DNA of 64,000 nt from Vulcanimicrobiota bacterium. Its GTDB lineage: Bacteria; Vulcanimicrobiota; Vulcanimicrobiia; Vulcanimicrobiales; Vulcanimicrobiaceae. The stretch is from NCBI GenBank assembly GCA_027306785.1, contig DAHUZB010000022.1, positions 1 through 64,000 on the forward strand, written 5' to 3'. A program made the position numbers and the translations under genes. Of the stretch, positions 48,659 through 61,799 are shown one piece after another; position 1 is the first letter of the stretch; each line of letters starts with the position of its first letter. Under the pieces are notes generated by a model that ran no database searches, was not told where the DNA came from, and saw only the letters and a list, made by a program, of their open reading frames with translations.

Positions 48659-48669
<11 letters not shown>
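47905..48669 (-). CDS. Short-chain dehydrogenase/reductase
   Basis: The product has 254 residues from ATG 48669. It has [16 protein letters not shown] (NAD(P) GxxxGxG), [10 protein letters not shown], and the catalytic Ser-Tyr-Lys set [22 protein letters not shown]. The C-terminal GGMEA is typical. It would be a 3-hydroxyacyl-CoA-dehydrogenase-like step for ring beta-oxidation. It overlaps the end of the flavoenzyme gene by 11 bases, so the two are translationally linked. Confidence 0.92.
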
Positions 48670-50974
<2,305 letters not shown>

Positions 50975-55116: not shown

Positions 55117-55636
55117 CGCGCGCGCGTCCGCCGTTCCCGACGTCGTCATCGCGCCGTCGCCGAACGACGTGCTCGCGGTCATCACGCGCGCGGTCTTCCA
55201 GACGGGCGTGAGCTGGGCGCAGATCGCGGCGCACTGGGATGCCTACGGGCGCGCCTTCGCCGACTTCGATCCCGCGCGGGTCGCCGCGTTTACCGAGATC
55301 GACGCCGCGCGCGCGCTCGAAGAGCCGGGCGTGCTGCGATCGCCGCGCAAGGTGCGCGCGATCGTGGCGAACGCCGCCGCGCTCGTGCGTCTGCTCGCCG
55401 AGTTCGGCAGCCTGCACGGCTACGCGTCCTCCTTCGCCGACTATGCGTCGCTTGCGAAAGATGTCAAAAAGCGCTTCGCCTTCATGGGCGATATGAACGC
55501 GTGGTACGTGCTCTTTCGCCTGGGCGAGCCCGTGCCGCGTTTCGAAGCGTGGGTGACCACGATTCCCGGCGAGCACCCGCGCATGCGCGAGATGGTCGAA
55601 CGCGCGCGCGCCGCCGGGCGTTCCTCGGAGCGTTAG
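55094..55636 (+). CDS. DNA-3-methyladenine glycosylase I-like (Tag/HhH) protein
   Basis: The 180-residue protein overlaps the preceding gene by 23 bases. It matches the Tag core: VITRAVFQTGVSWAQIAAHW, AFADFDPARVAAFTEIDAAR, RSPRKVRAIVANAAALVRL and KDVKKRFAFMGDMNAWYVLF. Classical Tag zinc-binding Cys/His are not obvious, so it may be a divergent member. It would remove alkylated adenine from DNA. Its TAG overlaps the stop of the convergent TonB receptor gene. Confidence 0.8.
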   Translation: MPRATPPDARASAVPDVVIAPSPNDVLAVITRAVFQTGVSWAQIAAHWDAYGRAFADFDPARVAAFTEIDAARALEEPGVLRSPRKVRAIVANAAALVRLLAEFGSLHGYASSFADYASLAKDVKKRFAFMGDMNAWYVLFRLGEPVPRFEAWVTTIPGEHPRMREMVERARAAGRSSER

Positions 55637-58600
55637 CCCGGCGGCCGTTCCGGCCGCACGAGATAGATGCCGAGCGCGGGCGTGTAGTTCAAGCCCGGAA
55701 TCACCACGCCGTCCCACCCGCGTTTCACCAGATCGTCGGGCTGCGCCGCGGCGACGCGTCCGCACATCAGGAGCGCGCGCACGAGCCCCGGGTCGGCCGG
55801 CTCGAGCTCGTACCAGGCGCCGTTCTTCGCTCCATGCGGTGAGATCGTCCACAGCGCGGTCGCGCTCCCGTGCGCGAAGTGCGCGCGTAGTTCGGCGAGC
55901 GCCGCCGCCGCATCGGCGTGCAGCTCGGGCGTACAGCTCGCGGCGCCGCCGCGCAGTTCGAACGGGTCCTTGGGCGGCGACGAAGGCAGCGCATAGACGC
56001 GGAAGCTCTCCTTTCCGGCCTGTGGCGGATGCGTTTGAATGTAGAGTCCGACCGACGGCATGAAGACGATCGGACGCGAGAACGCCCCGCCCGGCGCGAC
56101 GTACAGGTGGTGGGCGGCGATCTCATCGGACGATGCCGTATGCAGGGTGAGGCAGCCGATGAACACGCGGAACGGTCCGCCGCCACGCGGCGCTCCCGGG
56201 CTCGGTGCGGGCGCGGCGCCGTGGTTCGCCACCAGTTGCGACGCGAGCACGCGCGGGGCGGCGTTCGCGGCGAGCTTCGGTGCGATCGCGAGCGCATAGG
56301 TAGAGCCCATGCCATGATAGGTGACGGTCGCCGTCGCGAACGAGGCGGGCGGCATCGCGGGCGGATAGCCCGCCGCGGTCTTCGCCGCTTCGATGCGTGC
56401 GACGTAGGCTTTGAGTTCGCCCGCGAGTGTCACCGCATCGGCGTGCGCATCGGCGGGACAGATATCGAGGCTATCGCGAACCGCGAACGGATCGCTCGGC
56501 GGCGACTGCGGGACCGGTGTGATCATGCGGCGGAACCCGCCCGGACCGCCGAAGCGTCCGCGCCGGGCGCCGAGCGACGGTGCCGCACGCGGTGCATTCG
56601 CGGCGCCGGGGCCGAAGCGCGCGGTGTAGGTCACGGCATAGCTGCGCGGCTGCAGCGGGCGCGCGAGCGTGGGGAGCTGCAGCCCGTTCTGCGTGACGTA
56701 CGGCACCGCATTCTGCGGACTCGTGAAGATGCCGGCGTACGCGTTCGTGAGATTGTCGGCCGCGAAGGTGAGCGAACCGTGCGCGAGCGTGGCGCTCACC
56801 GCGGCATCGAACGTAGTAAAGGCGGGCAGATTGTTCGGATTGTTCTTCCCCGTGTACTGCGCGTCGGCGAGCCATTCGAGCGCGGAGTGCGGCGCTTTGT
56901 AATCGAGCACCAGACCGGCGCGTTGCAGCGGGACGTTCGGCAGTTGCCGGCCCGAGACGGTGATCGAGTACGGATTATCGATGCGCGGATCGTTCGAGAG
57001 CAGTTTCGCGACCGTTACGTCGTAGAACGGTTGCACCACCAGACGCCCGAGCGAGAGAAAGCCGGTGAGCGATCCGCCCTCGTAGACGCGCCGCACGCCG
57101 CCGACCGGGCTCGAAAAATAGAGCTGCGACGCCGCGAATGTCGCGCTCGTGTTGCAGCCGGCGGAGGATGCGTACTGTTGGGCGACCGCCGCGAGATAGG
57201 CGGGTGAAAGGACGCCTTGCGCGGCAAGCACCGAGCCGTTCACCTGCACCGGCGCGACGACGTCGTTTTGGACCTGTCGGTAGAGCTGCAGTGAGAGCGA
57301 GCCGCCGCGCAGCGTGCGCGTGTACCCGACCCGCTGCGAGATCGAGGAGCTCGCGCCCGGCTCGTCGCCCGGCGCGTTGCCGTACGCCACGTTGCCGTTG
57401 CAGTCGAAACGGAGTGATTGCGGATCGGTGAGCGTCATCGCCCGCGACGGACCGGCCGCCGCGCCGCCGACCGCGTACGAAGCAAAGAACGCATCGTGCG
57501 CGGTCGGACGCCAGCTGAAACCGGCGCTCGCGAGCGCACTGCCGCGAGCATTGGTCGAACGGCTCAGTCCGACCGATTCGTTGAGGGTGAGCGTATCGTT
57601 CGAGCGCACCGTGTCGGTGAGTTGGAGCGCACCGTAGCTCGAGCTCTGCTGCGCGTTGTAGTACGGAATTGCCTGCGCCGTGAGCGGCGTGGTAAAGCTG
57701 TCGCCCCACGAGCCGTAGGCCTGCACCGAGAGCGTGTGCCGCAGGCGCGCGGGCAGCGTGGCGTTCACGGTAAACCCACGGTTGCGGGAGAGCGTGGAGA
57801 ATCCGATCGGCTGCGCCGCTCCGGCGACGTAGCGATCGAGCTGATCGTTGCGCGAATCGAAGGCGCTCGAGAAGATCGATGCCTGCACCGTCGTCTCGCC
57901 GAAGAGCGCGGTATCGGTGAGCGAGTAGAGCTGCACGTTGCCGTCATCGAAGTTTCCCGGGCCGTAACCGCACGGCAACCCGCGCGAGACGCGCAGACAC
58001 ACGATGCCGGTCTGCCGCGCCGAGCTCAAAAACATGCCGGTGAGGCTCTGGGTGTCATTCACCTCGTATCGGAACTTCGCGAGGTTCCCGCTGATCGAGG
58101 AGTCCCCGTTATGCACGTAATCCAATCCGCTCGCATCGAGATAGCGCATGCCGTCGACGAGACTCGGATTGAGCCGATAGGTCGACTGCAGCGCGACGCC
58201 GAGTCGACCGAACGATCCGCTCTCGGCAAATCCGTAGTTGTAGCGCCCGTTGCTCCCGGTCGCAAGCGAGGCTTGCGACATCCAGCTCAGCGTCGGTTCG
58301 AGCGTCGAGAAGTTGACGCCGCCCGCAAGTCCGCCGGGTTGCGGCCCGTTGTGTACCGCGGCACCGCTGAAGAGATCGGTCGCGAACATTCCCAGATTTC
58401 CGGCCGTGCCGGGCGCGTTGAGCGGGATACCGTCGAGCGAGAGCTGCGTTTGGCTCGGATCCTGACCGTCGAGCGAGATCGTTTGCGTCGCATCGCTGTC
58501 GTCGCTCGTCGTCTGCACGGAGACGCCCGAGAGTTTGTTCAGGGCATCGGCGAGATCGTTCGAGAGCTTCCGCTGCGCCGAATCGGCACCGATCACCGAA

Positions 58601-58986
58601 CTCGACACCACCGCGGACGAGCGTGCGATCGACGTGCCGATCACCTTCAAATCGGAGCTCGGCGCAAGCTTCACCGTCACGGTGACGGCCCGTCCGTTAA
58701 TCACCTCGAACGGCGCCGACGTGATGATCTGATAGTCGCGCTTCGCGATGCGTGCGTGATAGATGCCGTCGGGAACGTCGGTAAAGAGCACCTCACCGTT
58801 CGCGCCGGTCAGTTCGCTTGCGATCACGGGGCCGTTCAAGAGCACGCGCGCGAGATCGATCGGCGTCTTGCCGTCGATATCGGTGACGACGATGCGAATC
58901 GAGCCCGAATCACTCTGCGCGAGCGCGTAGAACGGGGAGCAAACGACGAGCAGCGCGGCGACCGCAGCGAGGAAGAGACGCATCAT
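55633..58986 (-). CDS. TonB-dependent outer-membrane receptor with duplicated C-terminal extension
   Basis: The 1117-residue protein starts with a signal peptide (1-23). A carboxypeptidase-regulatory-like beta-sandwich spans about 28-105, and the plug about 110-240 (ADALNKLSGVSVQTTSDDSD, then TISLDGQDPSQTQLSLDGIP). The barrel runs to about 791, where RSYAVTYTARF reads like a normal terminus. A further 326 residues form two related halves, beginning SPPSDPFAVR (about 828) and SPPKDPFELR (about 1003). Each has a Cys, a HADA(V/A) motif and a terminal P(S/A)xGxY. The substrate is unknown. It is downstream of a two-component system on the same strand. Confidence 0.88.
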   Translation of the reverse strand: MMRLFLAAVAALLVVCSPFYALAQSDSGSIRIVVTDIDGKTPIDLARVLLNGPVIASELTGANGEVLFTDVPDGIYHARIAKRDYQIITSAPFEVINGRAVTVTVKLAPSSDLKVIGTSIARSSAVVSSSVIGADSAQRKLSNDLADALNKLSGVSVQTTSDDSDATQTISLDGQDPSQTQLSLDGIPLNAPGTAGNLGMFATDLFSGAAVHNGPQPGGLAGGVNFSTLEPTLSWMSQASLATGSNGRYNYGFAESGSFGRLGVALQSTYRLNPSLVDGMRYLDASGLDYVHNGDSSISGNLAKFRYEVNDTQSLTGMFLSSARQTGIVCLRVSRGLPCGYGPGNFDDGNVQLYSLTDTALFGETTVQASIFSSAFDSRNDQLDRYVAGAAQPIGFSTLSRNRGFTVNATLPARLRHTLSVQAYGSWGDSFTTPLTAQAIPYYNAQQSSSYGALQLTDTVRSNDTLTLNESVGLSRSTNARGSALASAGFSWRPTAHDAFFASYAVGGAAAGPSRAMTLTDPQSLRFDCNGNVAYGNAPGDEPGASSSISQRVGYTRTLRGGSLSLQLYRQVQNDVVAPVQVNGSVLAAQGVLSPAYLAAVAQQYASSAGCNTSATFAASQLYFSSPVGGVRRVYEGGSLTGFLSLGRLVVQPFYDVTVAKLLSNDPRIDNPYSITVSGRQLPNVPLQRAGLVLDYKAPHSALEWLADAQYTGKNNPNNLPAFTTFDAAVSATLAHGSLTFAADNLTNAYAGIFTSPQNAVPYVTQNGLQLPTLARPLQPRSYAVTYTARFGPGAANAPRAAPSLGARRGRFGGPGGFRRMITPVPQSPPSDPFAVRDSLDICPADAHADAVTLAGELKAYVARIEAAKTAAGYPPAMPPASFATATVTYHGMGSTYALAIAPKLAANAAPRVLASQLVANHGAAPAPSPGAPRGGGPFRVFIGCLTLHTASSDEIAAHHLYVAPGGAFSRPIVFMPSVGLYIQTHPPQAGKESFRVYALPSSPPKDPFELRGGAASCTPELHADAAAALAELRAHFAHGSATALWTISPHGAKNGAWYELEPADPGLVRALLMCGRVAAAQPDDLVKRGWDGVVIPGLNYTPALGIYLVRPERPPG

Positions 58987-59043: not shown

Positions 59044-60501
59044 TTAGAGCGTGATGAGAACCGTCGTGCCGCGCCGCGGCGAGCTTTCGAGCGCGATCGT
59101 ACCGCCCGCGCGCTCGACCGCGCGCTTGGCGATGGCGAGACCGAGACCGCTGCCCGCGATCTCGCCGCGGCGATCGCCGCGGTAAAAGCGTTCGAAGGCG
59201 TGAATGCGCTCGGATTCGGTCATGCCGGGACCCTCGTCGACGATCGCTATCGTGGTGTGACCGTCGTTACGCGTCGCACGCAGATGAATCGGGGATTCGG
59301 GCGCGTACTTCAGCGCGTTTTCGACCGCGTTCCAAATCGCCTCGCCGAGTTCGGCGCGATCGCCGACGACCTCGTGCACGCCGTCGACGCTGTAATCGAC
59401 ATCGCGGGCTTCGTCGAGCCGCTTGGCAGCTTCGACCTGCGAGCGCAGCAGATCGGCGACGTCGATCGGTTCGCGGCGCGGCGGCGTGTCGGCATCGAGG
59501 CGCGCGAGACGCATCAGCCGCTCGATCAGGCCGCGCATATGCTCCTTCTCGATCGACATCGTGCCCAGGATCTGCCGCGCGATCGTCGGCTCTTCGATCG
59601 CGCCGCGCCGGAGCACGTCGATATACCCGCCGATCACGGTCAGCGGCGTGCGCAGTTCGTGTCCGGCATCGGAGACGAATTGCCGCATGCGCTCCTCGGT
59701 CTCCCGGCGTTCGCCCATGGCCGAAGAGACGCGCGCAACCGCATCGTTGTAGGCGGCGGTAAGCGTTCCGATCTCGTCGCCGCCCGGCGCGACGAAGCGA
59801 CGCTGCGTGAAGTCGCCCTCCGCGAGCGCGCGCAGCGACTCGGTCACGTCGTTGATCGGGTGGAGCGCTTGCCGCGCAAAGAGCCGCCCGACGAACCACG
59901 AGAGAAAGATCGCCACGACCGCGATCGTGAGCACCAGACGCCAATAGGGCACGAGCGAGACGAGCAGCAGCGGCAGCGATGGTGCGAAGGCGACGAACCC
60001 GCCGTCCACCGCCGTCAGTTCGAGCGGTTCGGGCCGCGCCGGCCCCGGCCCGTCGCGAACGATCAAACGATACGCGAAATCGTGCTTATCGAGCGGCGAG
60101 GGCGGCTCCGGCATGCCGCGCAGCTCGATCGGGTCGCCGAGCCGCACCTCGGGCGAGAGCATGCCGGCCTTTCCCGAGACGACCCGATCGAGGATCTTCG
60201 GCCGCAGCGTCTTGTCGCCCGCGAGATACTTGCCGTTCTTATCGAATACGGTGACGCGCAGACCGATGCCGCTGAGAGTGTGTACGATCTCGGGGGCCGC
60301 CTGCCGCAGCGACATGCCCGCCATCTTGTATTGCGCGGTGAGGAAGCGTGCCTCTTCGTGCTTGGCGATCACGATGTCGCCCGTGAAGTTGGCCATCTCG
60401 AGCACCAGCGCCACGCCCGACGCGATGATCACGAGGACGATCGTGATCCCGAGCAACGTGGCGTATAACGCCGAGAGGCGCGACGCGAGCGAATGCTTCA
60501 T
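59044..60501 (-). CDS. Sensor histidine kinase
   Basis: The 485-residue protein has membrane helices at about 12-35 and 180-205 enclosing a periplasmic domain. A HAMP linker (LHPINDVTESLRALAEGDFT) follows, then HisKA with DAGHELRTPLTVIGGY (phospho-acceptor His281), and an ATPase domain with N box ENALKYAPES, G1 DEGPGM and G2 GSGLGLAIAKR. It is the partner of the OmpR-type regulator 3 bases upstream. It may control the adjacent TonB receptor gene. The signal is unknown. Confidence 0.95.
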   Translation of the reverse strand: MKHSLASRLSALYATLLGITIVLVIIASGVALVLEMANFTGDIVIAKHEEARFLTAQYKMAGMSLRQAAPEIVHTLSGIGLRVTVFDKNGKYLAGDKTLRPKILDRVVSGKAGMLSPEVRLGDPIELRGMPEPPSPLDKHDFAYRLIVRDGPGPARPEPLELTAVDGGFVAFAPSLPLLLVSLVPYWRLVLTIAVVAIFLSWFVGRLFARQALHPINDVTESLRALAEGDFTQRRFVAPGGDEIGTLTAAYNDAVARVSSAMGERRETEERMRQFVSDAGHELRTPLTVIGGYIDVLRRGAIEEPTIARQILGTMSIEKEHMRGLIERLMRLARLDADTPPRREPIDVADLLRSQVEAAKRLDEARDVDYSVDGVHEVVGDRAELGEAIWNAVENALKYAPESPIHLRATRNDGHTTIAIVDEGPGMTESERIHAFERFYRGDRRGEIAGSGLGLAIAKRAVERAGGTIALESSPRRGTTVLITL

Positions 60502-60504
60502 CGA

Positions 60505-61197
60505 TTAGGGTTGCTGCGAGAGGCCATAGCCGACGCCGCGCACGGTGCGAATGAACGAACCGCGCTCGCCGGGCCGATCGATCTTGGCGCGCAGATACGA
60601 GATGTACGTTTCGACGATGTTCGGACCGCCCTCGAAATCGTGTCCCCAGACGATCTCAAGCAGATGGTCTTTGCTGAAGACGCGCCGCGGTTCGCGCATG
60701 AGCACCGCGAGCAGATCGAATTCACGCTGCGTGAGTTCGATCGTGTCCTTGCCGCGAAAGAGTTCGTGCGTCTGGGGATTCATCGAGACATCGCGCCAGC
60801 GCAGCACATTCTCTTCGATGAGCTGCGGGCGCCGCAGCTTCGCCTGCAAGCGTGCGATGAGTTCTTCGAATACGAACGGCTTGACGAGATAATCGTCGGC
60901 GCCCGCGGCAAGGCTGCGGACCTTATCGCCCGTATCGCCCTTGGCGGTAAGCATGAGGATCGGGGCCTGCGAGATTTCGCGCAGCTTGGGAAGCAAGGTG
61001 ATCCCGTCGATCTTCGGCATCATGATGTCGAGGACGATCACCTCGGGATCGAACCGGCGCACCAGATCGAGTGCCGCGTACCCGTCGGCCGCGGTTTGCA
61101 CGTCGAAGCCTTCGCGCGAGAGCCCGAGTTCGAGCATTTCGCGCACCATGCGGTCGTCGTCGATCACCGCGACCCGAGCGTTTGACATATTGATCAT
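60505..61197 (-). CDS. OmpR-family response regulator
   Basis: The product has 230 residues; ATG 61188 (MSNARVAVIDDD) is an alternative start. The receiver domain has acidic pocket DDD (13-15), phospho-acceptor Asp57 (VLDIMMPKIDG), and Lys106 (DYLVKPF). The C-terminal winged helix carries LTQREFDLLAVLMREPRRVF and YISYLRAKIDRPGERGSFIR. It is co-transcribed with the histidine kinase. No target box was identified. Confidence 0.95.
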   Translation of the reverse strand: MINMSNARVAVIDDDRMVREMLELGLSREGFDVQTAADGYAALDLVRRFDPEVIVLDIMMPKIDGITLLPKLREISQAPILMLTAKGDTGDKVRSLAAGADDYLVKPFVFEELIARLQAKLRRPQLIEENVLRWRDVSMNPQTHELFRGKDTIELTQREFDLLAVLMREPRRVFSKDHLLEIVWGHDFEGGPNIVETYISYLRAKIDRPGERGSFIRTVRGVGYGLSQQP

Positions 61198-61243: not shown

Positions 61244-61699
61244 CTAAGCGGCGCGAAGCGGCGAGACCCACCGCGAGTAGGTCTGTCCGGAGATCAGAGC
61301 GGCTTGGCGGATGGCATCGAGCGGATGAACCACCAGGCCGACCCCCGCGCGGCGCAGCGCCGCCGTCATCACGTCATCGGGCATCCAGTGGGCAAAGCAA
61401 TGGACCTCGCGGCTCCCGGAGGCCTGGGCCAAGCGCGCGAGCACCTCGACGAGCGAACACTCCGCTCGACTGAGCAGCGGGCGCACGAGCTCGGCCTCGA
61501 CGCGCCGGGGATTCCAACCCGCACCGATGACCACGACTTTCGAAAGCTCGCCGAGACTCGGGGACTCGAAATCGAGCAGGGCCGCGCGAACGCCGGCCGC
61601 AAGCGCCGGATCCGTCTGCGCGTGGAGGGAGGCCGCGGCGATCGTGGCCTGTGGACCCGCGGTGAGGACCGCTCCCGAACCGATCACATAGTCGTTCAT
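61244..61699 (-). CDS. Hypothetical protein, unknown function
   Basis: The product has 151 residues from ATG 61699 (MNDYVIGSGAVLTAGPQATI). It is an alternating alpha/beta-looking soluble protein. KVVVIGAGWNPRRVEAELVR in the middle and LRRAGVGLVVHPLDAIRQAA near the end resemble Rossmann-like strands and helices. There is no signal peptide, no Cys cluster and no family I recognise. It is 46 bases upstream of the response regulator on the same strand, so it could belong to that operon. Confidence 0.6.
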   Translation of the reverse strand: MNDYVIGSGAVLTAGPQATIAAASLHAQTDPALAAGVRAALLDFESPSLGELSKVVVIGAGWNPRRVEAELVRPLLSRAECSLVEVLARLAQASGSREVHCFAHWMPDDVMTAALRRAGVGLVVHPLDAIRQAALISGQTYSRWVSPLRAA

Positions 61700-61740
61700 G
61701 GGACGAGTATCGCCCCATAAGATGCCATCTGGGTGGCACC

Positions 61741-61773
61741 AAAAAATAGGAGGCGCCGCATACACGGCGCCTC
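61741..61773 (-). terminator. Rho-independent terminator after the HD-GYP gene
   Basis: In the minus-strand transcript, GAGGCGCCG (61773-61765) pairs with CGGCGCCTC (61758-61750), a 9-bp GC stem with a 6-base loop. CTATTTTTT follows (A-run 61741-61746 on plus). It separates the HD-GYP gene from the hypothetical gene at 61699. Confidence 0.88.
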
Positions 61774-61799
61774 TGCCCACCACCCGATAGCGGGATTTC

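Follow-up and report, generated by a model that had tools for sequence, protein, structure and literature searches.

Organization of the receptor locus

The window, the whole stretch of 64,000 nucleotides that was analyzed, carries a frame of 1117 amino acids on its minus strand (complement 55633-58986) that encodes a TonB-dependent receptor, with genes for a histidine kinase and an OmpR-type response regulator directly upstream. The features of the locus are listed below in the order of transcription, together with the grounds for each assignment.

60505..61197, minus strand: OmpR-type response regulator, first in the regulator-kinase-receptor order (Pfam; 68-97% identical in the linked loci of the family)
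59044..60501, minus strand: histidine kinase with HAMP, HisKA, and HATPase_c domains, directly upstream of the receptor (Pfam; linkage conserved in the window's family)
58915..58986, minus strand: signal peptide, residues 1-24 (MMRLFLAAVAALLVVCSPFYALAQ) (reading of the sequence; predicted helix at 2-15)
58666..58902, minus strand: N-terminal carboxypeptidase-regulatory-like domain, residues 29-107 (PF13620, E 1.7e-5, below the curated cut-off)
58336..58617, minus strand: plug domain, residues 124-217 (PF07715, above cut-off)
56614..58281, minus strand: 22-strand beta-barrel, residues 236-791, with the Phe-terminated strand 782-791 last (AlphaFold2 model; VIA-align to BtuB)
56518..56613, minus strand: flexible Gly/Arg/Pro-rich linker, residues 792-823 (pLDDT <50 at 798-816; variable in orthologues)
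55987..56517, minus strand: tail module 1, residues 824-1000, including the connector to module 2 (confident fold; conservation in orthologues; homology to module 2)
56458..56460, minus strand: Cys843, first invariant cysteine of module 1 (28/28 orthologues)
56152..56154, minus strand: Cys945, second invariant cysteine of module 1 (28/28 orthologues)
55636..55986, minus strand: tail module 2, residues 1001-1117 (same grounds as module 1)
55933..55935, minus strand: Cys1018, first invariant cysteine of module 2 (28/28 orthologues)
55762..55764, minus strand: Cys1075, second invariant cysteine of module 2 (28/28 orthologues)

Apart from its tail, the receptor is ordinary, with a signal peptide, a CarboxypepD_reg-like domain, a plug, and a 22-strand barrel. 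The plug matched PF07715 at 37.1 bits (cut-off 23.9), and the match to PF13620 (CarboxypepD_reg) that precedes it was weak, at 25.5 bits versus a cut-off of 32.3. Neither the Pfam barrel model nor the Pfam model of the secretin/TonB short N-terminal domain (STN) matched the receptor. TonB is present in the host genome, with 10 TonB_C matches over cut-off. Four cysteines within the barrel region, C330, C339, C529, and C611 (57154-57999), are also invariant in the 28 receptor orthologues; these probably lie in extracellular loops and may form two more disulfides. Elsewhere in the window, positions 48659-50974 encode a 771-amino acid protein that, judged by eye, resembles a fusion of an FAD-dependent monooxygenase with an old-yellow-enzyme-type reductase.

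End of the barrel and side of the membrane

The full-length receptor was modelled with AlphaFold2 from 59 aligned sequences (mean pLDDT 82.5). Our count of DSSP elements gave 22 barrel strands, the last at residues 782-791, followed by a stretch of low confidence (798-816, pLDDT <50). The model aligned to BtuB with a VIA-align Z of 29.7, and structural alignment stopped at residue 791, where BtuB (594), FecA (741), and Cir (663) also end. Tail-less homologues in related genomes likewise end shortly past the equivalent of strand 782-791. Results are consistent with the first-pass annotation of this DNA, which had placed the end of the barrel at about residue 791. The receptor of the window does not stop at its last strand, the usual although not defining end of such proteins, and continues for 326 residues. 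Extra barrel strands in residues 792-1117 were ruled out by both the full-length model and a model of the tail alone (791-1117; 54 sequences; pLDDT 85.8, pTM 0.72), in which the tail forms a separate folded, duplicated unit.

Known receptor topology places the tail most likely on the periplasmic side, since a chain whose plug lies in the periplasm is expected to return to that side after an even number of strands. Of the two locations initially considered for a new topology, the periplasmic one is therefore supported, by the even strand number and by the signal peptides of stand-alone modules (see below), and surface exposure is not. The accompanying premise that outer-membrane barrels normally end at the last strand was overstated, as OmpA and the fimbrial ushers similarly place a C-terminal periplasmic domain after a barrel; those are other barrels, however, the tail of the window's receptor matches no known family by sequence, and such an arrangement is indeed unusual for a TonB-dependent receptor.

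A false fusion, frameshift, or assembly artefact as the origin of the receptor-tail frame is refuted by uninterrupted frames of ~1100 amino acids in dozens of genomes and by purifying selection that spans the junction of receptor and tail. Furthermore, no orthologue splits the tail from the receptor into a separate gene, the outcome in relatives that had been named as a sign of false fusion. With no point found in its favor, the probability of such an artefact is negligible.

Structure and sequence of the tail modules

The two modules begin with SPPSDPF at residue 828 and SPPKDPF at residue 1003. Self-alignment of the modules scored 88 versus a maximum of 65 in 1000 shuffles, and after removal of the first 12 residues a score of 52 was retained, which was reached by 4 of 1000 shuffles. 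Profile-profile comparison of module 1 with module 2 (hhalign: Prob 99.5, E 1.5e-22, 112 columns) confirmed the two related modules initially read from the single protein and, at the level of sequence, leaves no doubt that they are homologous. The tail had been described as a 326-residue duplicated module; the duplication holds, and the 326 residues comprise two modules of ~165 (module 1) and ~110 (module 2) residues plus a linker rather than one module. Each module is predicted to fold as a long helix, hairpin, helix, strand, helix, and final hairpin. The Gly-rich linker before the modules is disordered in the model and variable in length and sequence among orthologues, and an insertion of ~28 residues in module 1 was seen only in the genus of the window and in a few of its close relatives.

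Conserved features in the orthologues are the SPP(S/K)DPF start, two cysteines per module, and a terminal P..G[LIF]Y, all in agreement with the initial description. The HADA(V/A) motif, listed there as a further module feature, is not conserved and was rejected as a functional motif, being a coincidence of the window's protein. All 39 two-module tails contain exactly four cysteines, two per module, and in the 28 aligned orthologues these four are invariant and are the only cysteines of the tail. The same holds for the number in paralogues (four in 11/11 tails), and intact one-module tails contain two (10/10). The simplest reading is that each module is probably closed by one disulfide. Strict pairing, with two cysteines per module and no others, fits disulfides better than a metal site, which is disfavored within the modules; the proposal that the tail binds a metal or cofactor is not supported.

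No match to the tail was found in Pfam, NCBIfam, or PDB sequences, nor to the module in plasmids, and a fold search of viral proteins gave no usable match (fold searches used module 1). None of the libraries searched has an entry for this domain family, which, within the reach of these searches, is undescribed.

Distribution and evolutionary history

Intact full-length frames with the same tail were found in dozens of genomes from three families of one class. The module is carried by 97 of 149 genomes searched in the phylum, all 97 in those three families. The records behind the 76 related loci are labelled Candidatus Eremiobacterota or WPS-2, or are unlabelled bacterial MAGs, and the window's genome is itself that of an Eremiobacterota bacterium; the labels Proteobacteria and Rhodospirillales on two related loci are probably wrong. 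The layout is class-wide in the mostly uncultured Eremiobacterota, and the tail may occur beyond them, the wide scan outside this group having used plug and barrel patterns rather than the tail.

The modules are under purifying selection, with dN/dS of about 0.19-0.47 in the genus and its nearest relatives. Within the genus they evolve faster than the barrel (57-66% versus 79-81% identity), which gives no hint of a single ligand site under strict conservation.

Other receptors, forming a second group, have a single module and a Gly-rich LPQGGGS end. In three one-module receptors (L154, L167, and L176) the module is interrupted by long Gly/Pro-rich insertions, and the ends are LPQGGGSLK-like. 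In a tree based upon the barrel only, all 39 two-module receptors cluster together (support 90/93), apart from a group of one-module receptors that includes one tail-less member. The tail-less receptor L258 nests near the one-module group, showing that at least one lineage can do without the tail. A profile of the one-module receptors resembles module 1 about as closely as module 2 and so favors neither as the older copy.

Stand-alone modules

The first-pass annotation proposed a search for the module alone, and stand-alone genes do exist, mostly beside receptors that keep both modules. Small exported proteins with a single module lie directly upstream, on the same strand, of two-module receptors in genomes G066 (twice), G013, G001, and G083; further copies were found near a contig end (G065) and without an adjoining receptor (L330; G073). 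The four receptor-linked copies other than that of G083 matched module 1 in profile comparison with probabilities of 77.7-91.1% and scores of 36-42, versus maxima of 16-26 in the shuffles used as controls, and the G083 copy was matched by HMM (E 1.5e-13). None of the stand-alone modules matched Pfam. Their signal peptides, read by eye, are cleavable-looking and ordinary, with no evident lipobox. The existence of the module alone with a signal peptide, shown here by computation and in five cases upstream of receptors, indicates an independent exported domain that is most likely periplasmic, and barrel assembly is not required as an explanation of the tail. At one locus of G066 (L300:1067-4272), a two-module receptor extends over two overlapping frames beside an intact stand-alone module gene; this split receptor is frameshifted or misassembled.

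Linkage to a two-component system

In the window, gaps of 3 and 57 bases separate response regulator, histidine kinase, and receptor. The same order and strand were found in 32 of the 46 two-module loci with enough upstream sequence, including nearly all loci of the window's family, and those without it belong mostly to family f2, family f3, and the paralogues. In three loci of family f3 the regulator is inverted but adjacent. Several loci of the one-module group (L158, L167, L169, and L172) have the pair downstream, in the order receptor, regulator, kinase. Members of family f2 and every paralogue examined retain the tail despite lacking a two-component neighbor. The linkage, likewise shown by computation, suggests shared regulation, and the retention of both modules in paralogues without a two-component neighbor ties the role of the tail to the receptor rather than the kinase. 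An ECF sigma factor and a FecR-type anti-sigma factor are absent as upstream neighbors, their place being taken by the kinase and the OmpR-type regulator. Just upstream of the response regulator, on the same strand, positions 61244-61783 encode a 179-amino acid protein without a match in Pfam or NCBIfam, which also adjoins the regulator in many relatives (34-75% identity).

Comparison with known receptors

A survey of 34,893 TonB-dependent transporters described five N-terminal architectures and named no C-terminal domain (PMC6434023). The Oar-type architecture of that survey (CarboxypepD_reg, plug, and barrel; PMC6434023) has a 22-strand barrel and, as far as the weak PF13620 match of the window's receptor holds, the same N-terminal order; the receptor of the window differs in being elaborated C-terminally, in a PF13620 match below cut-off, and in the unmatched Pfam barrel model. 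Transducers of the FecA/FpvA/PupB type likewise combine a receptor with an extra small periplasmic domain beside regulatory genes, but their signalling domain is N-terminal and acts on an anti-sigma factor (PMC9249621), whereas the window's receptor has C-terminal domains and a two-component neighbor. No description of a receptor with a C-terminal tandem tail was found in the open-licence literature on TonB receptors. TonB receptors have thus been described so far as elaborated at the N-terminus, and the C-terminal tandem is undescribed as far as searched.

Possible functions of the tail

The architecture is secure with respect to the barrel end, the domain nature of the tail, its duplication, its conservation, and the pairing of its cysteines. 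With regard to its use, we favor a tethered periplasmic binding or adaptor unit of an ordinary receptor, a reading that we believe and doubt in about equal measure. In this view a periplasmic C-terminal tail was added in evolution to an ordinary TonB-dependent receptor, its flexible linker bearing a small alpha/beta domain in duplicate, with probably one disulfide closing each copy. The tail would sit where cargo leaves the barrel and TonB works, and would hold cargo or a partner protein there, a role that is hypothetical. The stand-alone modules, exported and encoded beside some of these receptors, would then probably be partners of the tail or share its ligand.

Alternatively, the tail could be a signalling domain, which in the loaded receptor would touch the sensor region of the neighboring histidine kinase through its periplasmic modules. 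The regulator-kinase-receptor order of most two-module loci, the downstream pair of the one-module group, and the inverted but adjacent regulators of family f3 all argue for this possibility; however, co-location may reflect transcriptional control only, and direct signalling is ranked below a binding or adaptor role because receptors that lack the two-component link keep the tail. We consider it unlikely, and a little less likely still in its fuller form, with the receptor signalling via the C-terminal tandem to a dedicated histidine kinase and the module serving also as a separate periplasmic partner. An anchor or stabilizer, comparable to the C-terminal domain with which OmpA holds peptidoglycan, or an aid to barrel assembly would be in keeping with the order of barrel, linker, and periplasmic domain, which resembles the OmpA layout. 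Yet by sequence the tail matches neither OmpA-like nor other known families that bind the cell wall, tail-less homologues exist, and an anchor would not lead one to expect a soluble exported module next to the receptor, rendering this role improbable.

Eight type IV pilin entries (Z 5.7 to 3.4; best 4d40 at Z 5.7, a weak match, with 5g2f and 4bhr also among them) led the structural matches to module 1, and type IV pilins were the only consistent group among solved structures; they share a long helix on a small antiparallel sheet. In the module a helix also leads into a YP motif and a hairpin, and pilins of the same clade (L221-L235) recall the module in having one cysteine ahead of the soluble helix and another within a CPGxH motif. 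Descent from type IV pilin-like proteins, with pilin-like assembly or docking of a pilus or secretion component at the outer membrane, nevertheless appears slightly more improbable than an anchor: the Foldseek E was 0.37, a Z below 8 may reflect a common arrangement only, and profiles of the clade's own pilins were marginal, two of three barely exceeding 60 shuffles and the third not doing so. Moreover, the modules differ from pilins in lacking a prepilin leader and a hydrophobic helix and in being fused to a receptor, and the stand-alone forms have ordinary signal peptides. The resemblance seen in the model is a structural hint, too weak for a claim of homology.

As a class-wide, duplicated, cysteine-paired C-terminal domain that also occurs as a free exported partner, the module represents a new domain family for the libraries searched. 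It raises a defined question, namely what use a receptor has for a folded domain tethered at the periplasmic opening of its own barrel. Furthermore, a TonB receptor here tolerates having its final strand inside the chain, a point relevant to the recognition of barrel ends by the assembly machinery. If the signalling reading were true, the tail would be the C-terminal counterpart of the FecA-type N-terminal signalling domain, and these bacteria would have a route of trans-envelope sensing distinct from the FecA-FecR-sigma route.
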